Origin: Polyangiaceae bacterium | GTDB lineage: Bacteria; Myxococcota_A; Polyangia; Polyangiales; Polyangiaceae | Assembly (NCBI GenBank): GCA_019637265.1 | Contig: JAHBVY010000008.1 | Span: forward strand, 1 to 64,000 | DNA length: 64,000 nt | Direction of reading: 5' to 3' | Shown here: piece after piece, positions 6,204 through 23,904 of the stretch | How positions within the stretch are numbered: the first letter of the stretch is position 1 | Layout: every line of letters begins with the position of its first letter | Position numbers and translations under genes: made by a program | The notes under the pieces: model-generated | What the model was told of the DNA's origin: nothing | The model's input: the letters and a program-made list of their open reading frames with translations, nothing else | The model's database searches: none

Positions 6204-7523
6204 TCAGCTCGAAGGCGGCGGCTCGCTGTGGCTAACCTCCGCGGCTTCGAGCGGGGTGACTTGGGCCTCCGCCACGCCGAGGCCGTCCACGCTCAGCACC
6301 ACGAAGCGGAAGCCTTGGTAGCTGACCGCGTCGCCCACCTCCGCCGGGCGGTTGAGCAGCGCGAGGATGAGGCCGCTCACGGTGTCGACCTCTGGGTGGG
6401 AGAGATCCGCGTCCGCCTCGTCGCCCACCTCGTCCAGCCGCGCGATGCCGAGCGCGCGCAGGCCGCCCTCCACCACCACGACCGGATCCGGGCCGCTCCG
6501 GCCATCGTCAATCTCCCCGACGACCTCCTCGAACAGGTCTTCCATGGTGATGATGCCGGCGGTGCCGCCGTGCTCGTCCATCACCACCGCGAGCTGCGTC
6601 TTCTCGCGGCGCATCATGCTGAGCACCGTGCCGAGCCGCGCTGTTTCCGGGAGGAAAGGCACTGGGCGCACGCGATCCTCCGAGAGCCGGGCGCCCTCGT
6701 GCAAGGCGGCGAGCAAGTCACGGATCAGCACCATGCCGACGATCTCGTCCAGGCCCTCTTTATAAACGGGGTAGCGCGTGTGCTGCTTCCCCTGCAGGCG
6801 CTCGCGCAGCACGTCCGGGCTGGCGCCGAGCGGGATGCCGGTCACGCGGACGCGCGGGACCATCACCTCCACCGCGGTGCGGGTGCCGAACTCGAACAGC
6901 TCGATCAGCACGTCCCCCGCCTCTTCCTCCAGCTCGCCTTGCTCCACGCTCTCTTCGACGATGAAGCGCAGCTCCGCCGCGGTGTGGTGTCGTAAGCCAC
7001 CCTGACGCCTGACCCCCACGGCGCGCAGCAGCAGCGCGCCGAGCTTGTTGAGGCTCACGACGAACAGGTACATGAGCGCCTTGAACCAGCGCATCGGGGT
7101 GCTGAGCAGGAGCACTGACTGTTCCGCGCGGCCCAGCGCCAAGGCCTTGGGCACCATCTCCCCGATCACGATGTGCACGTAGGTGCAGAGCCCGATCGCC
7201 AGCACCGAGGCCACGCCGTGCACGCTGATCCAATGCCCGAGGCCGATGCGCTCCAGGTAGGGCGCGATGGCGACCGCCACCGCGTGCTCGCCGTACATGC
7301 CGAGCCCGAGGCTCGCGAAGGTGATGCCGAGCTGGGCGGTGGCGATGTACTGATCTTGCTTGGTGGGGTCGCGCAAGATGGCGAGCACCGCCTTCGCGCG
7401 GGTGCTGCCCTCCGCGGCGCGGCGCTCGATGCTCGAGCGCGGCACCCCGATGATGGCGAACTCGGCGGCGACGAAGATGCCGTTCAGCAGCACCAAGAGC
7501 GCGATGATGAGCACCGTGAGCAT
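6204..7523 (-). CDS. CNNM/CorC-HlyC family transport-associated protein (DUF21-CBS-CorC), second copy
   Basis: A 439-residue membrane protein. The N-terminal half is a DUF21/CNNM transmembrane domain beginning LIIALLVLLNGIFVAAEFAIIGVPRSSI. A CBS pair follows (VMVPRVRVTGI... and VPFLPETARLGTVLSMMRREKTQLAVVMDEHGGTAGIITMEDLFEEVVGEI), and a C-terminal CorC_HlyC domain (about 350-425). Homologues are Mg2+/Co2+ efflux-linked proteins (CorC, PaeA, MpfA) and are often misnamed hemolysins. Its ATG shares one base with the TGA of the upstream paralogue (TGATG), so the two are translationally coupled and may work as a pair. Confidence 0.88.
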   Translation of the reverse strand: MLTVLIIALLVLLNGIFVAAEFAIIGVPRSSIERRAAEGSTRAKAVLAILRDPTKQDQYIATAQLGITFASLGLGMYGEHAVAVAIAPYLERIGLGHWISVHGVASVLAIGLCTYVHIVIGEMVPKALALGRAEQSVLLLSTPMRWFKALMYLFVVSLNKLGALLLRAVGVRRQGGLRHHTAAELRFIVEESVEQGELEEEAGDVLIELFEFGTRTAVEVMVPRVRVTGIPLGASPDVLRERLQGKQHTRYPVYKEGLDEIVGMVLIRDLLAALHEGARLSEDRVRPVPFLPETARLGTVLSMMRREKTQLAVVMDEHGGTAGIITMEDLFEEVVGEIDDGRSGPDPVVVVEGGLRALGIARLDEVGDEADADLSHPEVDTVSGLILALLNRPAEVGDAVSYQGFRFVVLSVDGLGVAEAQVTPLEAAEVSHSEPPPSS

Positions 7524-8884
7524 CAGCCGGGCTCCCCTTCGGCCGCTTCGGGAGGCGCTGGCTCAGCGCTCGTCTCCTCGCGGCTCGGCACGGCCACCCA
7601 AGTGACCTGCGCCTCCGAGGCGGCGTGCACCGTGAGCGTCAGCTCCGCCACGCTCACCGTGTCGCCCACCACCGGGATCCGCCCGAGGCGCTCGGTGACG
7701 AAGCCGCCCAAGGTGGAGGCATCTGATTCGGGCTCCTGACCTATCCAAGGGGTCGCCTCGCGCAGCGCCATGCCGCCGGGGAGCAGGGTGCGCCCGTCGG
7801 GTAAAAGTTGGGGCTCGGGGCTCGGCTCCTTCAGCTCGTCTTGCACCTCACCGAAGACCTCCTTCAGCAGGTCTTCCATCGTGATGAAGCCCTCCACGCT
7901 GCCGTGCTCGTCGACCACGATCGCCTTCGAGCGCCCGCGCTCTTGGAGGAAGCCCACCACCCGATCGGCGCGCAGTGTCTCCGGGATGAAAGGCACGGTG
8001 CGCACCAGCCGGGTGAGGGGAGGGAGCTTCACCTGGGCGCCGGGCGCGCAGCGCGCGACGAGCCCCGCGACGTCCTTGGTGCTGACGGTGCCGAGCACGT
8101 CATCCAGGCTGCCGCGGTAGACGACCAGCTGGCTGTAAGGGCTGCTCAGCAGGCGCTTCAACACCTCGTCCCCCGGGGTGCTCACCTCCAGCGTCGCGAG
8201 GCGGCTCCGCGGCACCATCAGGTCGTGCACCGTGAGCTCGCTGAGGCGCAGGCCGTGCTGCAGCTGGCGGTGGGCCTCGTCGCTGAGCGCGCCTTGCTCG
8301 CGCGACTCGGCGAGCAAGATGTCAATCTCTGCGGGCGAGTGCACGTGGTGGTGCGAGCTCGTCTTCATGCCGAAGGCGCGCAAAATGAGCAGCCCGCTGC
8401 CGTTCAGCACCGTGACCACGTGGCGCAGCACGAGCACCGAGAGCGCCATCGGCCGGTGGGTGGCGAGCGCCGTCTGCACCGGGCGCTCGAGCGCGTAAGA
8501 CTTGGGCACCAGCTCACCGATCACCACCTGGAGCACGGTGAGCAGCGCGAGCACGCTGACCGCCGCCCAGCTCGCGGCGGCGCCGTCCGTGAGGCCCGTG
8601 TGGCGTTGGAGCAGCGTTTGGATCTGAGGGCTGACCGTCGCCTGGCCCACCGCGCCCGCGATCAGGCTGGTGAGGGTGATCCCGATCTGACAAGCGGCGA
8701 TGTAGCGATCCACCTCGGTGGGGGACTCGAGCACCCGGAGCAGCCGCGCGGCGCGCTCGTTCCCGCTCGCCGCGAGCCGCGCGATCTGCGGCCGTGAGGC
8801 GGCCACCATGGAGAACTCCGCCGCCACGTAGAGCGCGTTCAGCACCAAGTTCAGTGTGACGACAACGACGGGCAGCAGGAGCAA
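7523..8884 (-). CDS. CNNM/CorC-HlyC family transport-associated protein (DUF21-CBS-CorC), first copy
   Basis: A 453-residue paralogue of its downstream neighbour with the same order: DUF21 membrane domain (LNLVLNALYVAAEFSMVAASRPQI), two CBS motifs (VPRSRLATLEV and VPFIPETLRADRVVGFLQERGRSKAIVVDEHGSVEGFITMEDLL) and a CorC_HlyC tail (about 360-435). The start appears to be TTG at 8884 because the hydrophobic first helix follows immediately; no ATG fits. The likely role is divalent-cation efflux or its control. Tandem paralogues of this family occur in many bacteria, suggesting heterodimers. Confidence 0.86.
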   Translation of the reverse strand: MLLLPVVVVTLNLVLNALYVAAEFSMVAASRPQIARLAASGNERAARLLRVLESPTEVDRYIAACQIGITLTSLIAGAVGQATVSPQIQTLLQRHTGLTDGAAASWAAVSVLALLTVLQVVIGELVPKSYALERPVQTALATHRPMALSVLVLRHVVTVLNGSGLLILRAFGMKTSSHHHVHSPAEIDILLAESREQGALSDEAHRQLQHGLRLSELTVHDLMVPRSRLATLEVSTPGDEVLKRLLSSPYSQLVVYRGSLDDVLGTVSTKDVAGLVARCAPGAQVKLPPLTRLVRTVPFIPETLRADRVVGFLQERGRSKAIVVDEHGSVEGFITMEDLLKEVFGEVQDELKEPSPEPQLLPDGRTLLPGGMALREATPWIGQEPESDASTLGGFVTERLGRIPVVGDTVSVAELTLTVHAASEAQVTWVAVPSREETSAEPAPPEAAEGEPG

Positions 8885-8966
8885 CGTCCGAGTGGCCTAT
8901 CACAGAACGCCTGCCGCGGTGAGCAGGATTGGGGCCCTCCGGGGCCCCGCGGAGTTGGCAGAGCGG

Positions 8967-10520
8967 TCAGGCGGGCGCGCTGGTGCGCATCCAGTGCTCG
9001 AAGGCGCCGAGCGCCGCCTTGGCGCCGTCTCCCGCGGCGATGACGATCTGCTTGTAGGGGGTGGTGGTGGCGTCGCCCGCGGCGAACACACCCGGCACCG
9101 AGGTCTGCCCTTTCACGTCCACCACGATTTCCCCCATGGGGCTCAGCTCCACGGCGCCCTTCAGCCAGTCCGTGTTGGGGAGCAGGCCGATCTGCACGAA
9201 CACCCCCGCCACCTCCAGCTGACGCAGCTCACCTGTGGCCCGGTCTTCGTAAGTGAGCCCGACGACCTGACGCCCGTCGCCGCGCACCTCCGTGGTGCGC
9301 GCCTCGGTGATGATCTCCACGTTCGGCATGCTGCGGAGCTTCCGCTGGAGCACGTCGTCCGCCTTGAGGTCGTTCATGAACTCGAGCACCGTGACGTGGT
9401 CCACCACGCCCGCCAGGTCGATGGCGGCCTCCACCCCGGAGTTGCCGCCGCCGATCACGGCGACGCGCTTGCCCTTGAACAGCGGCCCGTCGCAGTGAGG
9501 GCAGTAGGTGACGCCGCGGGTGCGGTACTCCTGCTCGCCCGGCACGTTCATGTCGCGCCAGCGCGCCCCCGGCGCGAGGATGAGGCTCCTGCCCCGCAGC
9601 ACGCCGCCGCTCTCGAGCTCGAGCGTGTGAGGCTCACCGGGGATCAGCCGGCTCGCGCGCTCGCGCTTGATGATCTCGATGGGGTAGCTGGCCAGCTGCT
9701 CTTCGAGGCCAGCCACCCACTTGGGGCCGTCCGTCTCCGCCACCGAGATGTAGTTCTCGATCGCCAATGTATCGAGCACCTGACCACCGACGCGCTCGGT
9801 CACCAGCCCCGTGCGCAGGCCTTTCCGCACGGCATAGACGGCGGCCGCGGCGCCCGCCGGGCCACCTCCGACCACCAAGATGTCGAAGGGCTCTTTGTTG
9901 GAGAGCGCCTCGGCGCGCCCCGCGACGGCGGAGCTGTCGAGCCTGGTCACCAGCTCATCGAGCTCCATGCGCCCTTGTCCGAAGCGCTCGCCGTTCAGGT
10001 AAATCGTGGGCACGCTCATGATCTGGAGCGCCTCCACTTCCTCGCGGAACAGCGCGCCGTCGATCGAGGTGACGCTGATGTTCGGGTTCTGCGACGCCAG
10101 GATGTTCAGCCCCTGCACCACGTCCGGGCAGCTCTGACAGTCCTGCGAGAAGAAGATCTCGAAGGCGAGCGGCCCCGGGAGCGCCTTGCCGCGCTCGAGG
10201 CTCTCTTGATCTACGCGCGGTGGGTGGCCGCTCACGTGGAGCAGGGCGAGCACCAGCGAGGTGAACTCGTGCCCCAGCGGGAGCCCAGCGAAGCGCACGC
10301 GCGGCGCCTCGTTCGGCAGGTGGATGGCGAACGAGGGCTTCCGGGGCGCGTCGTCCGTCTCCACCACCTCCACCAGCGTCGAGGCGCCGGCGATGTCGGC
10401 GAGCAGCGCGCGGGTGTCGGCGCTGGCTTGGCTGTCGTCCAGCGACGCCGAGATGCGGATCGGCCGCTTGAGGTGCTGGAGGTACTGGGTGAGCTGAGCC
10501 TTGAGGGTGTCGTCGAGCAT
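8967..10520 (-). CDS. ahpF: Alkyl hydroperoxide reductase subunit F
   Basis: A 517-residue flavoprotein disulfide reductase that passes electrons from NADH to AhpC. The N-terminal double-thioredoxin-fold domain carries the CQSC pair (residues 128-131, in [12 protein letters not shown]). The thioredoxin-reductase-like part has FAD-binding [15 protein letters not shown], the redox-active CPHC (about 341-344), NAD-binding [12 protein letters not shown] and the C-terminal FAD motif [15 protein letters not shown] strong ribosome site (aaggag) precedes ATG at 10520. It lies 227 nt downstream of ahpC on the same strand. Confidence 0.96.
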
Positions 10521-10627
10521 GGAGATCTCCTTCCAGCGCCCTCGCGTGAGGCGCCTTACCGCGCCCCCCGAGCCCTGATCGCGGTGTGACCGATCAGAGC
10601 TCAGGGAGACTCACTAGCTCTCGCGCG

Positions 10628-10690
10628 CCGCAGCAGGGCGCCGTTAGCGAACAGGGCGCGAACAGAGCGCCGTGGCGAACAGGGCGCCGC
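10628..10690. repeat. Imperfect tandem repeat between ahpC and ahpF
   Basis: Three to four imperfect copies of a 13-16 nt unit built on GCGAACAGGGCGCC (starts near 10647, 10659 and 10674, with a diverged copy from 10632). They fill the spacer between the ahpC stop and the ahpF start. Function unknown; possibly mRNA structure or simple expansion. Confidence 0.5.
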
Positions 10691-10747
10691 AGCGGACCAC
10701 CGCGAGCCATGGCGAGCTAGTCAGCCACGGCGCGCGCGGGCGTCGTC

Positions 10748-11311
10748 TCAGATCTTGCCGACGAGGTCGAGCGAGGGCTTCAGGGTCTTGGCTCCCTCTT
10801 GCCACTTCGCGGGGCACACCTCGCCGGGGTGGCTCGCGACGTACTGCGCGGCCTTCACCTTGCGGAGCAGCTCGCTGGCGTCGCGGCCGATGCCATTGTC
10901 GTGGATCTCGCAGAGCTTGATTTGACCCTCGGGGTTCACGACGAAGGTGCCGCGCAGCGCGAGGCCCTCCTCCTCGATCAGCACGTCGAAGTGGCGCGCC
11001 AGCGTCGCGGTGGGGTCGCCGACCAATGGGTAGCTCACCTTCTTGATGGCCTCGGAGGTGTCGTGCCAGGCCTTGTGCGAGAAGTGGGTGTCGGTGGACA
11101 CGCCGTAGATCTCGACGCCGAGCTTCTGGAACTCCGCGTAGTGGTCCGCCAAGTCTTCCAGCTCGGTGGGGCACACGAAGGTGAAGTCCGCCGGGTAGAA
11201 CACGAACACGCTCCACTTGCCGAGCACGCTCTCATTCGTCACGTCGACGAACTTCCCGTTGTGGTAGGCGGTGGCTTTGAAGGGCTTGATCTGGGTGTTG
11301 ATGAGCGACAT
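10748..11311 (-). CDS. ahpC: Alkyl hydroperoxide reductase subunit C (2-Cys peroxiredoxin)
   Basis: A 187-residue typical 2-Cys peroxiredoxin that reduces H2O2 and organic peroxides. The peroxidatic Cys47 lies in FTFVCPTE and the resolving Cys166 in GEVCPAKW, exactly the AhpC arrangement. N-terminus [21 protein letters not shown]... matches enterobacterial and myxobacterial AhpC, and length is standard. A ribosome site (GGAGGC) precedes the ATG. It is divergent from oxyR, with a 138-nt shared control region, and is followed by its reductase ahpF. Confidence 0.97.
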
Positions 11312-11384
11312 GGCGCCTCCTTGGTTTTGAGGGTTGGGGTTAGGTGGGGGGGAGGATGGTCACGAGCGGCGCATGAGTCGAGCA

Positions 11385-11405
11385 GAACGTTATGAAATAG
11401 CGTTC
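11385..11405. promoter_or_regulatory. Candidate OxyR operator between ahpC and oxyR
   Basis: The AT-richer core of the divergent intergenic region holds an inverted repeat GAACG-N11-CGTTC with an internal ATAG. Position and dyad fit an OxyR site controlling both genes, as in other ahpC-oxyR pairs. The match to the ATAG-based OxyR consensus is partial, so this is inference. Confidence 0.45.
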
Positions 11406-11449
11406 ACAAAAAGTGATGATTCGGGCGGGGCCGATGCTAGGCTTTTCTC

Positions 11450-12412
11450 ATGGACCTGAGCCAGGTGACCCTCACGCAGATGCGCTACGCGGTGGCCATC
11501 GCGGAGGCGGAGAGCTTCCGCCTCGCGGCCGAGCGCTGCCACGTGTCGCAGTCGGGCCTCAGCATGCAGGTCCAGAAGCTGGAAGACTTGCTGGGGGTGG
11601 TGCTGTTCGACCGCAGCAAGAAGCCGGTGATGCGCACGCCGGAGGGTGAGGCGGCGCTCGCGCAGATGCGCGCCATCTTGCGGGAGACGGAGCGGCTCGG
11701 GCAGATCTTGGCGGAGGAGGTGGAGCCGGCGGGCTACTTCCGGCTCGGGGTGATCCCGACCTTGGCCTCGACGGTGGTGCCGCTGTTCCTACGTCGATTC
11801 GTGGAGCGCTACCCGCGGGTGGCGCTGTCCATCGAGGAGCTGAAGACGGATGAGATCATCGGCCGCCTCCATGGGGATGTGCTCGACGCCGGGCTCGCCG
11901 CGACGCCGCTCTCGGAGGTGGGCCTGCATGAGGAGGCGGTGGGGCGCGAGCCGCTCCACGCTTACCTCCCGCTGGGGGATCCGCTGCTCAAGCGCCGCGC
12001 GCTGACCCAGGCGGAGCTCTCGGAGCGCGAGCTGTGGGTGATGCCGGAGGGGCACTGCTTCCGGAGCCAGGTGCTGGCGTATTGCCGCGCGGATAAGCGC
12101 GCTGGCCCCGCCAAGGTGCGGTTCGAGAGCGGCTCCTTCGAGACCTTGGTGCGGCTGGTGGACGGCGGCATGGGGGCGACGGTGCTGCCCGCGCTGGTGG
12201 TGGCGCGGCTCCCGGAGGCGGTGCGGAGCGCGCAGGTGCGGCCGCTGGTGAGCCCCGTGCCCACGCGTGAGATCGGCGTCGTGACGGCGCGGACGCGGCT
12301 CCGTCAGAAGGTGGTGGACGCCTTGTGCGGGGAGCTCCGCGCGGTGCTCACCGAGGCGCTCGGGGAAGCGAAGAAGGGCGAAGCGGTGCTCGACCCGCGG
12401 CCCGCGCGGTAG
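11450..12412 (+). CDS. oxyR: OxyR, LysR-type peroxide sensor regulator
   Basis: A 320-residue LysR-family regulator. The N-terminal winged HTH is residues 4-65 (FRLAAERCHVSQSGLSMQVQKLED). The effector domain contains the redox pair Cys203 and Cys212 in GHCFRSQVLAYCR, the same nine-residue spacing as C199/C208 of E. coli OxyR, and DGG-MGATVLPAL typical of the family. It would form a disulfide with H2O2 and activate ahpC/ahpF and probably katA. It is divergent from ahpC. Confidence 0.94.
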   Translation: MDLSQVTLTQMRYAVAIAEAESFRLAAERCHVSQSGLSMQVQKLEDLLGVVLFDRSKKPVMRTPEGEAALAQMRAILRETERLGQILAEEVEPAGYFRLGVIPTLASTVVPLFLRRFVERYPRVALSIEELKTDEIIGRLHGDVLDAGLAATPLSEVGLHEEAVGREPLHAYLPLGDPLLKRRALTQAELSERELWVMPEGHCFRSQVLAYCRADKRAGPAKVRFESGSFETLVRLVDGGMGATVLPALVVARLPEAVRSAQVRPLVSPVPTREIGVVTARTRLRQKVVDALCGELRAVLTEALGEAKKGEAVLDPRPAR

Positions 12413-16845: not shown

Positions 16846-18171
16846 ATGGACAGTCAACCTCCCGTGCTCCTGCTCCGGAGCTATGGTCTAGCGTTCGATC
16901 ACCAGGTCGTGCTCTCGGACGTCACGCTCACTATCCCCCCGAGCGGCATCGTCGTCCTGATGGGGCCGTCGGGGACGGGCAAGTCCTCGTTGCTTCGCAC
17001 CCTGGCGGGTCTGAACGACGCTCAGCCCTCGCTGCGCACCTGGGGTGAGGCTCATTACCTCGACGGGCCGCTCTCTCAGCGCAACCGTCCGGTCATGGTG
17101 CTCCAGCACGCTCGTCTGCTCACCGCCTCCGTGCTCGAGAACATCGTGTGCACGCTGCCGAACCGTGACCTGCTCACCCGGGGCGAGCAAGTCACGCTCG
17201 TGAGCGAGCTGCTCGCGCGCTTCGATCTCGAGCACCTATCAGCCCAGCTGAGCAGCGACGCCATCGATCTTTCGCTCGGCGATCAGCGTGTCTTATCGAT
17301 CATCCGCGGCGTGGCGAGCGGCGCTGCCTTGGTGTTGGTCGACGAGCCCACCTTCGCGCTCGAGCCTGAGGCCGAGGAGCGTGTGCTCGATGTACTCATG
17401 CGCGCGGCGGCTGAGCGTGCGCTGCTGGTGGTGACCCACAACCAGCGGCATGCGCGCCGCTTGAGCGACGACATCGCGTTGCTCGCTGGGGGGCGCGTCG
17501 TGGAGCGCGGCGCGGTGCTGACCGCGCCAGGCACCGAGGCGGGGCGCGAGTTCTTGTCTACCGGCAACACCTCGTTGGCGAGCCCTGGCGCGGACCCGAG
17601 TGAGTTAGCCCCTGGCGTCCCGGCGCCGGCGCCGCTGCCGCGCTCAGCCTCGCTCGAGGGCCCCAGCGCGCCGCGTCATTTCTATTGGCTGGTCCCTGGC
17701 AGGCTCGCCGGAACGCCCCGTCCGGGGATCATCGATCCAGTGAGGAAAGATCTGGAGCGCCTCGCGAGTATTGGTGTCACGCTCCTGGTTTGTCTGGAGG
17801 AGGAACCTCCAATCTCCGAGGCTCTGCTGACTGAGTTCGGGCTCCGCTCGGTTCACATCGCCGTCGTCGACATGCAACCGCCTACCATCGAGACCGCCGA
17901 GGCGTTCTGCGCTCAGGTGACCAACGCGCTCACCGCGGGCGAGGTGGTCGCGGTCCACTGCCTGGCTGGGCTCGGCCGGACGGGCACCGCCCTCGCGCTC
18001 TATCTGGTCTCCCAGGGGGTTACATCCCTAGAGGCTATTGACACCATCCGCGCGCTCCGGCCTTGGTCCATCCAAACCGCAGAACAAGCGGACTTCATTT
18101 CGCGCTTCGAGCGCCTTCTTCACGGCGCGGGTCCGCCCGCGCAGCTCATCGGACCAGAAACCACGGAGTGA
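16846..18171 (+). CDS. ABC ATPase fused to a DUSP23-like dual-specificity phosphatase
   Basis: A 441-residue cytoplasmic fusion. Residues 5-225 form a complete ABC nucleotide-binding domain: Walker A GPSGTGKSS (40-48), Q-loop Gln87, a variant signature LSLGDQ (142-147), Walker B LVLVDEP (162-168) and switch His198. A Pro/Ala/Ser linker (about 226-276) leads to a phosphatase domain opening with WLVPGRLAGTPRPG (281-294). The general-acid loop is DMQPP (342-346) and the P-loop is HCLAGLGRTGT (371-381), with catalytic Cys372 and Arg378. LRPWSIQT follows, as in VHZ/DUSP23. No transmembrane domain exists here or in neighbouring genes, so this is not an ordinary importer ATPase. Gene 1 ends 9 nt upstream and the Roadblock-like gene starts 9 nt downstream. 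Confidence 0.9.
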   Translation: MDSQPPVLLLRSYGLAFDHQVVLSDVTLTIPPSGIVVLMGPSGTGKSSLLRTLAGLNDAQPSLRTWGEAHYLDGPLSQRNRPVMVLQHARLLTASVLENIVCTLPNRDLLTRGEQVTLVSELLARFDLEHLSAQLSSDAIDLSLGDQRVLSIIRGVASGAALVLVDEPTFALEPEAEERVLDVLMRAAAERALLVVTHNQRHARRLSDDIALLAGGRVVERGAVLTAPGTEAGREFLSTGNTSLASPGADPSELAPGVPAPAPLPRSASLEGPSAPRHFYWLVPGRLAGTPRPGIIDPVRKDLERLASIGVTLLVCLEEEPPISEALLTEFGLRSVHIAVVDMQPPTIETAEAFCAQVTNALTAGEVVAVHCLAGLGRTGTALALYLVSQGVTSLEAIDTIRALRPWSIQTAEQADFISRFERLLHGAGPPAQLIGPETTE

Positions 18172-18737: not shown

Positions 18738-18869
18738 GACCAGGAGCCTACGTCGTTCTTGACGTCAGGTAGGCGATCCTTTGCGCCAACTGCGTGAAGG
18801 GCAGATGAGCGGACTGAATCGGCGTTGGTTACCGTCGATGCATCGAGCCGCTCCGGTCGAGGTGAAGCG

Positions 18870-20432
18870 ATGACGACGATCAGCTACTTGGGTTCCCGCT
18901 ATCAGGTCAGGAGCGGCGAGTCGGCGCTCGACGCGCTGGTGCGCGGCGGCGCGAACGTCCCGTTCTCGTGTCGGCGCGGCTCTTGTCAGACCTGCCTCAT
19001 GCGCGCCGTGGCGGGCGAGCCAGGGCCCGTGGCGCAACGCGGGCTACGCCAGGAGCTGGTGGAGACGCACCACTTCATGCCCTGCGTTTGTCACCCGACA
19101 GAAGATTTGACGATTGAGGCGCCGGACCTCTCTCAGCTGCTGCTCACCGCCATGGTGAGCGGCGTGAGGCGCCTGGATGATCGCGTGGTGCGTCTCAGCC
19201 TGGAGACGGAGCGCGTGCTCGAGTGTCGTCCCGGGCAGTACATCAACCTCTACCGCGAGGACGGTCAGTCGCGGAGCTACTCCGTGCGCGGCTTGGTGGA
19301 CGAAGACTACTTCGTGGAGGTGGACGTGCAGCGGGTGCCGGGCGGCGCCTTCAGCGCGTGGATCCACGAGGGGCTACAGGAGGGCGACACCGTCAAGGTG
19401 CAGGGGCCGCTCGGCGACTGCCACTACCGGCCTGAAGACGACGGGCGTCCGCTCATCCTGATCGGCACCGGCACCGGGGTGGCGCCGCTCCACGGCATCG
19501 TGCGCGACGCGCTCCGGCAGGGGCACACGGGAGGGATCTGGCTCTACTTCGGGGCGCGCGAGGCGAAGTGGCTGTACGCGCACGAGGAGCTCACGGCGCT
19601 CGCGGCGCAGGGCGTGAGCTACCGCGCGGTGGTGCTCGAGGGCGCGGGTGATCAGGGCGCTACCGAGCGAGGCGCCCTCTTGCAGGGCGACGTGGTCACG
19701 CGCGCCTTCGCGGAGCACCCGGACGCGAGCCGCGCCGTGGTGTTCTTGTGCGGTGACGCGGACTTGGTGCAGCGCGCGCGCTGCGAGGCGGTGCTCGCCG
19801 GCGCGCGCCGCGACAGTATCCGCGCGGATCCGTTCGAGAGCGAGGTGGCCGCGCCGCCGCGCGACACCCAGATCATCGAGGGCATCGAGCCGGATCCGGA
19901 GCTGTGGGAGGCGCTCGGGCGCGGCCCGAAGCTGCGCGCCATCTTGGAGGACTTCTACACGGAGGTGTACCAAGACGAGCGGTTGTCCCCCTTCTTCCAC
20001 AACGTGACGCGCGAGCGCGCGGTGGACAAACAGTATTCTTTCCTTGCGGATATGTTCGCCGGCACCAAGGACTACTTCGGGCTGAAGCCGTTCAACGCCC
20101 ACCACTGGATGGTCATCTCCGACGAGCTGTTCGACTATCGGGAGGCGATGTTCGAGCGTCACCTGCGCCGCCACCAGGTGCCGGAGCCCATGATTCGCCG
20201 CTGGGCGCACCTCCACGAGCTGTTCCGGCGTGAGATCGTGAAGAGCCGCGCGCGTGGCCTGTTCTTGGAGGGGGTGGAGTACCACCTGGATCGCTTCCAG
20301 GAGGAGGTCGTCACCGTGGCTGGCTTGTGCGATGGCTGCAGCGCCGAGCTCCTGGTGGGCGACACCTGCCGCCTGCACGTCCGCACTGGACAGGTTTACT
20401 GTCAGCGCTGCGACGCGGCGGCGGCGGAGTAG
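18870..20432 (+). CDS. [2Fe-2S] ferredoxin-FNR reductase-truncated globin fusion
   Basis: A 520-residue soluble electron-transfer protein. The plant-type ferredoxin domain (1-88) carries CRRGSCQTC (Cys34/39/42) and the fourth Cys at 72 or 74. The reductase has FAD motif RSYS (134-137), NAD(P) loop GTGTGVAPLHG (198-208) and FLCGD (291-295). A truncated-haemoglobin domain follows (about 350-460), with LSPFFHNV and the proximal-histidine region NAHHWMVISD (about 408-417). The C-terminus bears two CxxC pairs (CDGC and CQRC), likely a zinc knuckle. Together it can move electrons from NAD(P)H to a haem, consistent with an NO dioxygenase or O2 reductase analogous to Hmp. ATG at 18870 follows GAGGTGA. 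It sits 285 nt after the Roadblock-like gene. Confidence 0.88.
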   Translation: MTTISYLGSRYQVRSGESALDALVRGGANVPFSCRRGSCQTCLMRAVAGEPGPVAQRGLRQELVETHHFMPCVCHPTEDLTIEAPDLSQLLLTAMVSGVRRLDDRVVRLSLETERVLECRPGQYINLYREDGQSRSYSVRGLVDEDYFVEVDVQRVPGGAFSAWIHEGLQEGDTVKVQGPLGDCHYRPEDDGRPLILIGTGTGVAPLHGIVRDALRQGHTGGIWLYFGAREAKWLYAHEELTALAAQGVSYRAVVLEGAGDQGATERGALLQGDVVTRAFAEHPDASRAVVFLCGDADLVQRARCEAVLAGARRDSIRADPFESEVAAPPRDTQIIEGIEPDPELWEALGRGPKLRAILEDFYTEVYQDERLSPFFHNVTRERAVDKQYSFLADMFAGTKDYFGLKPFNAHHWMVISDELFDYREAMFERHLRRHQVPEPMIRRWAHLHELFRREIVKSRARGLFLEGVEYHLDRFQEEVVTVAGLCDGCSAELLVGDTCRLHVRTGQVYCQRCDAAAAE

Positions 20433-20597: not shown

Positions 20598-20702
20598 AGA
20601 ACCCGGTGTGGGTACCTCGCGTGCCCTGCCTGGTCGGCCTGGCCCGACTCAGCTCCCCCAAGGTCGCTCTCGAGATCGACCCCCAAGAGAGGATTGCTTG
20701 TG

Positions 20703-21995
20703 ATGTCACGTTCGTTCACTTCGCTCACCTTGCTGCGCTTCAGCCCCCTCGCCCTCGCCCTCACCCTCGCGGTGACGGGCTGCAGTGATGACGACGATCC
20801 CTCACCCTCCAATGGTGGTAGCTCCGGCAACGGCGGCACCGCCGGCAACGCTGGCACCGCGGGTGTGGGCGGCACGGGCGGCGTCGGTGGTACGGGCGGC
20901 GTCGGTGGTACGGGCGGCGTCGGCGGCACGGGTGGCACCGGCGCCGAGGGTGGCTTCTCTTCGGAGCCGCTCGTCTACACCGCGGTGATCGGCGCCGGGG
21001 ATGGCAGCGTGTGCTTCGACTTCGACGACGCGGAGCCGGTGGACTGTGAAGCCGCGAGCGACGTTTGGGATCTGCGCTTCGAGGTCGCGGGGCGCGCTTG
21101 GAACATCTGGACCAACGGCGGGATCTTCGGGACCGGGGATGGCGGCGCCTTCGGGCCCATGAGCCCTCAAGACGCGGCGGAGCTGACTCGGAGCAACCAG
21201 ATCCCAGGCATTTTCCGTGACTATCTGGGCGGCATCTTCGCTACCACCCCCTGGTACAGCTACAACGTGTACGGCACCCACGACATCACGGCCAACCAGC
21301 GGGTGTACGTGGTGGACACGGGCTCGGCGCATTACCGCGTGCAAATCCTCTCCTACTACTCCGGGAGCGGCGTGAGCGGCATGCTGCAGCTGCGCTACGG
21401 TGAGCTGGGCAGCGCCACCTTCGAGGAGGTGGAGATCGACGTGCGCGCCGGCGGCTTCGGCGTGCCCGCGGACGACCCGGCGAACAAGTTCACCTACCTG
21501 GACCTCGACACCGGGGAGCTGGTGGACATCGACGACGCCACCGCGCGCAGCACCAACACGGTGTGGGACATCGGGTTCAAGCGCTACGACGTGATCATCA
21601 ACGGCGGCGCCTCGGGGCCTGGCGGGGCCACCGCGGCGGTCGCCAACACGCAATCGGCGCTCTACGACGCGGACGGCGCGCCGATCCGCGCGGCGTTCGA
21701 CGCCAAGACGGAGACCGAGGCCGAGGCGGATTTCCTGGCGGTCACGAGCGCTGACGGCCTCAGCTTCGTGACCGACGTCGGCAACCCCTACATCATCAAT
21801 GACGGCGGTGAGCACAGCTGGTTCACCTTCGAGCTGGGGCCGAGCGGGCCGACCTTCTCCGCGCAGCCGGACGTCTGGTGGGCCATTCGCTCCGCGGCGG
21901 GGAACAGCTTCGCCAAGATGCACGTCACCGACTTGGACGCCGCGACCCACTCCTACACCGTGGAGCTCTTCGTCCAACACGCCGAGGCGCCCTGA
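20703..21995 (+). CDS. HmuY-family haem-binding lipoprotein with two HmuY domains
   Basis: A 430-residue lipoprotein. The signal peptide ends in lipobox LAVTGC (Cys27). A Gly/Thr/Val-rich tandem-repeat linker covers about 38-80. Two HmuY-type units follow; each has the family's W-D-hydrophobic strand and the N-G-G turn: VWDLRFEVAGRAWNIWTNGG (about 118-137) and VWDIGFKRYDVIINGG (about 288-303). HmuY proteins bind haem at the outer membrane of Bacteroidetes and related outer-membrane systems. A Fur box lies upstream. ATG at 20703 was chosen over the in-frame TTG-type start at 20694. The next gene encodes a multihaem cytochrome 16 nt downstream, so the pair may handle haem or electrons together. 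Confidence 0.82.
   Translation: MSRSFTSLTLLRFSPLALALTLAVTGCSDDDDPSPSNGGSSGNGGTAGNAGTAGVGGTGGVGGTGGVGGTGGVGGTGGTGAEGGFSSEPLVYTAVIGAGDGSVCFDFDDAEPVDCEAASDVWDLRFEVAGRAWNIWTNGGIFGTGDGGAFGPMSPQDAAELTRSNQIPGIFRDYLGGIFATTPWYSYNVYGTHDITANQRVYVVDTGSAHYRVQILSYYSGSGVSGMLQLRYGELGSATFEEVEIDVRAGGFGVPADDPANKFTYLDLDTGELVDIDDATARSTNTVWDIGFKRYDVIINGGASGPGGATAAVANTQSALYDADGAPIRAAFDAKTETEAEADFLAVTSADGLSFVTDVGNPYIINDGGEHSWFTFELGPSGPTFSAQPDVWWAIRSAAGNSFAKMHVTDLDAATHSYTVELFVQHAEAP
20871..20939 (+). repeat. 18-bp coding tandem repeat in the HmuY-type lipoprotein
   Basis: Three full units GGTACGGGCGGCGTCGGT (with C/T variation) at 20871, 20889 and 20907 plus a partial fourth encode GTGGVG repeats after the lipobox. 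Copy number is prone to slippage. Confidence 0.8.
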
Positions 21996-22011
21996 AGCGG
22001 TCCGTGTCCTG

Positions 22012-23904
22012 ATGAGCCGGGCGCCCCGAGCACTCACCGCGTCTCCGAGGCGCCCGCATTGGGTAGGTACACTGACTGTCCTCGCGCTCACCCTGAGCGC
22101 GGGGCCCGCCGCCGCGCTCACCGGCCTGGTGCGAGACGGGAGCACCGGCGCGGCGATCCCGGGCGCCGTGGTTCGACTCCAGGCGACCTCCACGCGCACC
22201 GTCACCGACGCTGACGGTCGCTTCGTGTTGCCCGATCCGCTCGTCTCTGGCGCGCGCGTGGTGGCGGGAGCGCCGGGCTACTACTACGCGGGCGCCCCGG
22301 TGTTGGACACCGGCGAGGTCGTGCTGGCGCTCGACGCGGTGCCGCATGATCCGAGCGCGCCGGTGCCGCTCATGGATCCGTCGGAGTGCGCCAGCTGCCA
22401 CTCACGGCAGCACGAAGAGTGGAAGGGCTCGGCGATGGCGCACGCCGGCACCAATACCTGGGTGGCTGACTTGTACGACGGCAGCGCGACGCCCGGCGGC
22501 ATGGGCGGCTTCGTCTACGTGCGGGACTCGGTGCTCCGTGAGACGAGCCCCGCCTCCGAGTGCGCCGCCTGTCACCAGCCGGAGGCCTGGGCGGAGGACC
22601 CGCTGCGCGCGCTGCTACCGGTGACGGACGAGAGCCCGGCGGTGACGCGCGGCGTGTCCTGCCTGGTGTGTCATCTCGTTCGTTCAGTTGACGAAACCCG
22701 CCCCAATTTCCCTGGGATCTACCCGGGGGTGGTGGAGCTGAACCGCGGCGCCATGGTGCGCTTCGGCACCCTGGGTGACGTGGATTACCACGCGCCGCAG
22801 CGGATGCGCGCCGCCTACCAGCCGCAGCTCTCGTCGGTGGTGTGCGGCGTCTGTCATCAAGATCGGGGCGACCCGAGCGGTCACCATCGCTTCGATGGTC
22901 CGCTATCCGAACCAACTTACCTCGAGTGGCTCGAGTCGCCCTACGGCGATCCAGCGAGCCCGCTGTTTCAGAGCTGCATGGACTGCCACTCGGATCCCGT
23001 GGACGAGCGCTCGGGCAGCTTCGTGCTCGACCACACGCCGGGGCGCCCGCTCGGCGATCTGCGCTCGCACCACTTCGAGGGGACCACCGCGCGTTTCCTC
23101 GAGGACGCGGTCACCGTCGGGCTCGAGGCGGAGCAAGCAGGCGACCGCCTGATGGTGCGGGTCGCGCTGACCAACCACAACACCGGGCACCACGTGCCCA
23201 CCGGCGTGACCATGCGCAACATGATCTTGCTGGTGAAGGCGGAGGGCGAGCAGGGCCCGCTCGAGCACCTGGGTGACGAGCGCTTGAGCGACCTGGCCGG
23301 CGTGGGCGACCCGAAGCTCGGTTACTTCGCCGGCCTGCCAGGGAAGCTGTATGCCAACGTGAACCGCGCGGCGGACGGCAGCTCCCCGGTGATGTTCACC
23401 GAGGCGACGGAGACGGTGTACGACAACCGCCTGCCGGCGCTGGCGACCGACCGCACGGAGTATGTTTTCCGTGTAGAAAATACTGCGGCCGGTCAGGCAG
23501 CGACCCGCGCGAGCCGTCGCGAGCAGGTGCGGGTCAGCGTCCAGGTGATCTACCGCCGCGCCTTCCGCGAGATCATCGACGCCAAGGGCTGGAAGGAGGA
23601 CGGCCGCGGTCGCCCGCTCGCCGACTTGGCGCCGCCCCACTTCGGCCACCTGATGGCCTCCGCGGACGCGACGGTCGAGGTGCAGAGCGCCGCGCCCTCA
23701 CGCCCCGGCTGGCTCGGCGGAGGCGGCTGCGCAGTGGTCCTGCCTGCGGTGGCCCTGCCTGCGGTGGCCCTGCCTGCGGAGGTCGCGTCTGGAGAGGTGC
23801 CCGCCGGGATCGTGGCGAGCCGCCGCGCTCGTGTCGGTTGGGTTGTGGGGTTTGGCGTGGCGCTGGGCATCGCCTTCAAGCGCCGCGCACGCTCCCGCCG
23901 CTGA
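22012..23904 (+). CDS. Exported pentahaem cytochrome c with MYXO-CTERM-like anchor
   Basis: A 630-residue exported protein. The signal region is TLTVLALTLSAGPAAA (about 19-34). A carboxypeptidase-regulatory-like beta domain (about 35-105, GLVRDGSTGAAIPGAVVRLQA...TDADGRF) precedes five CxxCH haem sites at residues 126, 184, 217, 278 and 322 (CASCH, CAACH, CLVCH, CGVCH, CMDCH). A later NHNTGHHVPTG motif may add axial histidines. The C-terminus has GGGGC (Cys573), a repeated ALPAV stretch, then a hydrophobic helix and RRARSRR, which resembles the MYXO-CTERM sorting signal. ATG at 22012 was chosen; the frame is open to 21799 inside the lipoprotein gene. Role: surface electron transfer, probably with the HmuY-type partner. 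Confidence 0.85.
   Translation: MSRAPRALTASPRRPHWVGTLTVLALTLSAGPAAALTGLVRDGSTGAAIPGAVVRLQATSTRTVTDADGRFVLPDPLVSGARVVAGAPGYYYAGAPVLDTGEVVLALDAVPHDPSAPVPLMDPSECASCHSRQHEEWKGSAMAHAGTNTWVADLYDGSATPGGMGGFVYVRDSVLRETSPASECAACHQPEAWAEDPLRALLPVTDESPAVTRGVSCLVCHLVRSVDETRPNFPGIYPGVVELNRGAMVRFGTLGDVDYHAPQRMRAAYQPQLSSVVCGVCHQDRGDPSGHHRFDGPLSEPTYLEWLESPYGDPASPLFQSCMDCHSDPVDERSGSFVLDHTPGRPLGDLRSHHFEGTTARFLEDAVTVGLEAEQAGDRLMVRVALTNHNTGHHVPTGVTMRNMILLVKAEGEQGPLEHLGDERLSDLAGVGDPKLGYFAGLPGKLYANVNRAADGSSPVMFTEATETVYDNRLPALATDRTEYVFRVENTAAGQAATRASRREQVRVSVQVIYRRAFREIIDAKGWKEDGRGRPLADLAPPHFGHLMASADATVEVQSAAPSRPGWLGGGGCAVVLPAVALPAVALPAEVASGEVPAGIVASRRARVGWVVGFGVALGIAFKRRARSRR
23739..23781 (+). repeat. 15-bp tandem repeat inside the sorting-tail region
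   Basis: Nearly three copies of CCTGCCTGCGGTGGC, from 23739, 23754 and 23769, encode LPAVA repeats between the Gly-Gly-Cys and the C-terminal helix of the cytochrome. Confidence 0.75.

Follow-up and report, generated by a model that had tools for sequence, protein, structure and literature searches.

An ABC ATPase–phosphatase fusion encoded beside a predicted roadblock protein in Myxococcota

The phosphatase DUSP23/VHZ and its bacterial stand-alone relatives (PDB 2img, 4erc, 25xa) are single-domain enzymes of about 150 residues. The protein studied here carries a phosphatase with the same fold, D..PP loop, HCxxGxGRTG P-loop and Q-containing C-terminus, but fused behind an ABC ATPase. The importer ATPases PstB and ArtP share with its ABC half a complete ABC fold, the Walker A and B motifs and the Q and H loops (structural Z about 25). 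In contrast to them, the fusion has no permease, a degenerate signature and a C-terminal phosphatase, and belongs to a separate clade. In C-P lyase, the ABC domains of PhnK and PhnL also serve a soluble enzyme and not a permease, and PhnK is a structural match to the ABC half (Z 24.2). However, PhnK and PhnL are separate subunits that form a canonical ABC pair on a metabolic enzyme, whereas the fusion is a single chain with a phosphatase and a signalling context.

On the signalling side, the MglA/MglB polarity switch of Myxococcus combines a roadblock-fold protein with an MglA-family GTPase, as do some of the fusion loci; the GTPase of the latter is larger and multi-domain, and MglA/MglB have no ABC-phosphatase. 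Streptomyces conservons (CvnA-D) are operons in which a roadblock protein and a Ras-like GTPase accompany a histidine kinase (PMC13343842, PMC4316618). They share with some fusion loci the roadblock protein, the Ras-like GTPase and two-component proteins, but belong to another phylum and have the DUF protein CvnC in place of ABC-phosphatase, PATAN-like, metallophosphatase and kinase-like parts. A survey of prokaryotic Ras-like GTPases (PMC4316618) left out GTPases longer than 240 aa; it mentions PATAN proteins as neighbours, and the word “phosphatase” occurs nowhere in it. In the literature searched, we found no description of a fusion between an ABC ATPase and a phosphatase of the Cys-based type.

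A family of ABC–phosphatase fusions

In the window (the whole stretch of 64,000 nucleotides that was analysed), the fusion is encoded by an intact open reading frame, from ATG to TGA, within a compact operon: a 381-aa protein ends 9 bp before it, and the gene for a 134-aa protein follows at a distance of 8 bp (Table 1). The joining of an ABC domain to a phosphatase, proposed in an initial annotation made from the sequence, is real, and the motifs sit at the residues listed there. Misassembly, mentioned in that annotation as a way in which the proposal could fail, and a frameshift artefact are both ruled out by 36 fusions in independent genomes across Myxococcota, some of them single-contig (G103, G224 and G059). 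These 36, far more than chance would produce, were collected from 379 genomes sampled across the phylum, 24 of which carry the fusion, and from a first set of 97 related genomes, where several full-length fusions were found at 37–49% identity.

Table 1 Features of the fusion and its neighbours in the window
Feature	Coordinates	Strand	Basis or remark
Helical protein of unknown family, 381 aa	15691..16836	+	Upstream homologues at fusion loci L035, L088, L091
ABC nucleotide-binding domain + DUSP23/VHZ-like phosphatase fusion, 441 aa	16846..18171	+	Pfam, profile, AlphaFold2, structural alignment; 36 homologous fusions in Myxococcota
ABC domain, residues about 5-240, PstB/ArtP fold	16858..17565	+	Pfam ABC_tran; VIA-align
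Walker A GPSGTGKS, residues 40-47	16963..16986	+	G45, K46, S47 invariant (32 aligned fusions)
Degenerate ABC signature LSLGDQ, residues 142-147	17269..17286	+	Second Gly in 5/25 full-length homologues
Walker B LVLVDE, residues 162-167	17329..17346	+	D166, E167 (32 aligned fusions)
H-loop His198	17437..17439	+	32 aligned fusions
Interdomain linker, residues 241-272, Pro/Ala-rich	17566..17661	+	AlphaFold2 block pLDDT about 83-91
DUSP23/VHZ-like phosphatase domain, residues 273-426	17662..18123	+	Pfam, profile search, structure
General acid Asp342 (in DMQPP)	17869..17871	+	Invariant in 32 aligned fusions
P-loop HCLAGLGRT, residues 371-379, nucleophile Cys372, Arg378	17956..17982	+	Invariant in 32 aligned fusions
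Roadblock/LC7-fold protein, 134 aa	18180..18584	+	AlphaFold2 + Foldseek
[2Fe-2S] ferredoxin / FAD-NAD reductase / bacterial globin, C-terminal Cys-rich motif	18825..20432	+	Next gene of the window's module

The fusion is an old and conserved family. In a phylogeny of 72 ABC domains, those of the fusions fall on one side of a branch with SH-aLRT support of 100, and 27 other ABCs, taken from the same or other genomes, lie outside it. The few members of this clade without a PTP domain are L046 and L020 (a contig-edge case), L107 (a tandem-ABC paralogue) and L041. In the last (L041:7371-9585, minus strand), the ABC domain is 44% identical to that of the fusion in the window, its frame overlaps an adjacent one for a PAS-histidine kinase-receiver protein, and it faces a globin-reductase gene; this is possibly an ABC-kinase fusion carrying a frameshift. 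Among the best 5000 matches in 72,556 plasmids, none covered 80% of the fusion. A pattern scan of GTDB genome contigs returned only four ABC proteins, unrelated to it. Anti-phage defence was also considered and rejected, as PADLOC gave generic ABC-type ATPase matches only and nothing for the neighbours.

In the AlphaFold2 model of the whole chain (pLDDT 92.9, pTM 0.89, with 32 homologues as input), residues 5-240 align to PstB (9k3x_C, Z 25.2) and ArtP (2olj_A, Z 25.1), and Pfam ABC_tran matches residues 23-169 (2.7e-18). The annotated completeness of this domain was borne out for Walker A, Q87, Walker B and His198, so that the motifs expected of an ABC fold (Walker A/B, Q and H loops) are all in place; Q87 is kept in at least 90% of 32 aligned fusions. 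The signature, the element that completes an ATP site from across the ABC dimer, is a different matter. LSLGDQ does occur where it was annotated but is not the canonical LSGGQ-type motif of an ABC transporter, and it is poorly conserved, Gly145 surviving in 5 of the 25 full-length fusions in the alignment. Furthermore, a seven-member clade lacks both the signature and the helical subdomain, the ABC part that contacts permeases, while Walker A/B and the phosphatase are retained.

A variant architecture, in which a PATAN-like domain, two ABC domains and the phosphatase form a single chain, was observed at L095:5607-9254, L100 (about 6734-8959) and L106:9871-15762. Walker A is present in the first ABC only in all three. 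In L095 and L100, the first ABC has a poor signature and LSSEQ occurs in the second only. Such an arrangement is consistent with a single composite ATP site, and also with pairing between ABC domains.

Concerning the C-terminal half, Pfam DSP-type models match residues 276-417, with PTP-SAK at the top (5.6e-25) and Tc-R-P following (2.4e-20). The annotated kinship with DUSP23/VHZ was confirmed by profile and by structure. A profile built from the phosphatase halves of 14 homologues retrieved from the PDB the bacterial DSP 25xa (2.9e-41) and human DUSP23 2img (2.8e-31); the general acid and the P-loop are in register in both alignments. Residues 273-426 superimpose on 2img with a VIA-align Z of 24.5 and an rmsd of 1.6 Å over 148 residues (38% identity). 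The catalytic Asp, Cys and Arg of a DUSP23-type enzyme were found as annotated (D342 in DMQPP, C372 and R378 in HCLAGLGRTGT), and D342, H371, C372, G375, G377 and R378 are all invariant in 32 aligned fusions. Hence, the DUSP23-like half is predicted to be an active Cys phosphatase. Because its catalytic residues and those of the ATP site are invariant or at least 90% conserved, the chemistry of the phosphatase and the binding of ATP are both under selection. As to the segment between the halves, its Pro/Ala-rich composition was correctly described, but the model predicts a fairly well ordered block and not a loose tether.

Roadblock, GTPase and globin neighbours

The gene directly following the fusion, absent from the initial annotation, is the strongest clue to function. 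Its product has no Pfam match; in this it differs from MglB, since Robl_LC7 does not recognise it. A search of the PDB by sequence gave no convincing match either, and the fold was resolved by structure prediction. The AlphaFold2 model (pLDDT 92.4) retrieved with Foldseek the roadblock protein 3kye (1.4e-7), as well as MglB (3t12) and LAMTOR with TM about 0.7, and thereby assigns the protein a roadblock/LC7 fold. Beside distant fusions its homologues keep 60-71% identity, much more than the fusion itself.

In the 379-genome set, this roadblock gene is present in 24/24 genomes with a fusion and in 6/355 without one (Fisher 1e-32, a value that, like the other co-occurrence p-value given below, ignores phylogeny; the genomes concerned are, however, scattered patchily among many families). 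It lies within the locus of 33 of the 36 fusions, on the same strand every time, and directly downstream in 25 of them, at 22-283 bp. As loci L087-L123 were mostly retrieved through the roadblock gene, the unbiased measure of coupling is the 24/24 that came from the search started with the fusion.

An MglA-family GTPase gene is found in 12 of the 36 fusion loci. The GTPase profile matches MglA 3t12 in the PDB at 1.2e-48, and these GTPases keep the GKT, PGQ and NKxD motifs. The genome of the window encodes five GTPase homologues, all at loci away from the fusion. In several of the 12 loci, the GTPase is fused to, or adjoins, a kinase-like domain. The order found in L042 characterises one clade and includes, on one strand, genes for a histidine kinase, a response regulator-DUF4388 protein, two successive roadblock proteins, a PATAN-like protein, a GTPase with the kinase-like part, a calcineurin-like metallophosphatase and the ABC-phosphatase.

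The region behind the MglA-type GTPases (L042:5679-6452, plus strand, and homologues) is a domain of about 255 aa with K-T, DxHPSNF and YIDDD motifs. Searches of Pfam HMMs and of the PDB returned no match for it, and kinase-like is a putative, motif-level description. Many loci encode, upstream of the fusion, a further shared domain of about 260 residues, which is also part of the three ABC-ABC-phosphatase proteins; support for its relationship to PATAN/DUF4388 is weak to moderate.

No ABC permease was found among 257 neighbouring genes of 37 loci. Ten multi-TM neighbours in other loci and one in the window belong to other families or have no family assignment. The absence of a permease, initially noted for one locus, therefore holds family-wide, including near homologues with the same domain order, and the two halves were not encountered as separate genes of a known ABC transporter.

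The gene that follows the roadblock gene in the window encodes a ferredoxin-reductase-globin chain, whose domain order is unusual compared with flavohaemoglobin. This protein was detected in 18 of the 379 genomes; 15 of these 18 have the fusion, as against 24/379 overall (Fisher 3.6e-18). Its gene adjoins the fusion in the window, L096, L098 and L105. At E<=1e-20, the protein is missing from 9 of the 24 fusion genomes, and it is often encoded at another locus.

Further genes were noted on both sides of the module in the window. Some kilobases before it (8967-12412), an AhpF-like reductase and an AhpC-like peroxiredoxin are encoded with a divergent LysR regulator in an OxyR-like layout. On the other side (20694-23904), an HmuY-like protein follows a Gly-rich repeat stretch and overlaps a long open reading frame with carboxypeptidase-regulatory-like and multihaem cytochrome matches.

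Proposed function and alternative readings

As the roadblock gene is always present, a GTPase gene often and a permease never, the fusion and its partners are most likely an internal signalling switch and not a transporter. The initial suggestion of a soluble signalling device fits the conservation of the family, the lack of a permease in the 37 loci and the signalling partners encoded there (roadblock, MglA-type GTPase, PATAN-like, histidine kinase/response regulator and kinase-like proteins). In our preferred reading, which we consider probable, the fusion provides the phosphatase component of a cytosolic roadblock/GTPase module, and its ABC half binds ATP and regulates the phosphatase. Such a multi-protein module would be centred on the roadblock/LC7 protein and, in many relatives, would also contain the MglA-type (Ras/Arf-like) GTPase. 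The DUSP23-like half would dephosphorylate a partner, presumably a protein of the same module. The ABC half would bind ATP without being a transporter motor, and would position or regulate the phosphatase via ABC-type pairing or via contact with the roadblock or PATAN-like protein. Phosphatase output would then depend both on the nucleotide state and on the GTPase/roadblock complex. We infer the physical complex, the substrate and the direction of regulation.

Within this module, the ABC domain may act as a nucleotide-binding regulator or as a dimeriser of a soluble phosphatase, and an ATP-driven conformational change that gates the phosphatase, as put forward in the initial annotation, is plausible. 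A full ABC hydrolysis cycle is not needed throughout the family, since most homologues have a degenerate signature and one clade has lost it together with the helical subdomain. More tentatively, the ABC site could have been diverted from transport to serve as an ATP-occupancy switch that directly gates the fused phosphatase inside a Ras-like GTPase/roadblock complex, possibly with gas or redox input from the globin. If this were true, the fusion would be part of a soluble bacterial machine linking ATP state, GTPase state and protein dephosphorylation. Overall, the strict roadblock pairing across the phylum and the frequent MglA-type GTPase point to bacterial G-protein signalling systems of an undescribed class, with built-in phosphorylation control. 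The fusion also offers an unusually clean test of whether an enzyme can be switched allosterically by an ABC domain attached to it, as it is a soluble 441-aa chain with clear catalytic residues and has natural variants without signature, without Walker A or with two ABCs.

The variability of the ABC half raises the alternative that it is a nucleotide-bound scaffold without meaningful hydrolysis, the phosphatase being controlled by the roadblock/GTPase partners only. The scarcity of the signature Gly, the seven-member clade and two proteins that keep an intact phosphatase without Walker A (L043 and L123) argue for a scaffold. However, the invariant K46 and D166, together with at least 90% conservation of E167 and H198 in the 32 aligned fusions, speak for selection on ATP chemistry, and Walker A in the first ABC with LSSEQ in the second, in L095 and L100, resembles one preserved composite ATP site; we regard a pure scaffold as somewhat unlikely. 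Another alternative is a redox or gas switch, in which the ferredoxin-reductase-globin protein would sense NO or O2, or remove it, and the phosphatase would respond through its oxidisable Cys. Co-occurrence of globin and fusion, their adjacency in four loci and the AhpC/AhpF genes with their LysR regulator are all in line with this; yet, given the fusion genomes without the globin, its frequent location at a separate locus and the fact that redox control itself is something we infer, such a switch is unlikely.

Two further readings depart from protein signalling. With an ABC fold nearest to PstB and ArtP and PstB as the best NCBIfam match, though at 126.7 bits, far under the cut-off of 343.2 bits, the fusion might be an ordinary ABC transporter subunit with its permease elsewhere in the genome and a regulatory phosphatase appended. 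A transporter with a nearby permease is ruled out for the 37 loci, and the fusion ABC clade is distinct from the transporter ABCs of the same genomes. The degenerate signature, the loss of the permease-contacting subdomain in one clade and an obligate partner that is a roadblock protein likewise make a transporter subunit most improbable. The substrate of the phosphatase might also be a nucleotide, an RNA end or another small phosphate compound. Some DSP-fold enzymes use non-protein substrates, and the PTP-SAK model, the top Pfam match, takes its name from the “Swiss Army Knife” proteins of RNA repair. However, PTP-SAK matches in 9 of 14 ordinary control genomes and is therefore a generic DUSP23-like model, so that the RNA-repair reading was rejected as an effect of its name. 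As the closest solved structures are those of DUSP23/VHZ, and as neither the fusion, which consists of ABC and DSP domains only, nor the scanned neighbours contain an RNA-repair domain, a small-phosphate substrate is improbable.

A final variation concerns the two proteins without Walker A, L043:173-2311 and L123:9364-10932 (both on the minus strand). There, the phosphatase lies behind an ABC-like region and is followed by a photoactive-yellow-protein domain. In L043, this domain has a match to PDB 1gsx (5.3e-20), and the motif APCT with the chromophore Cys is retained; L123 is similar. Both are possible light-sensing phosphatases.
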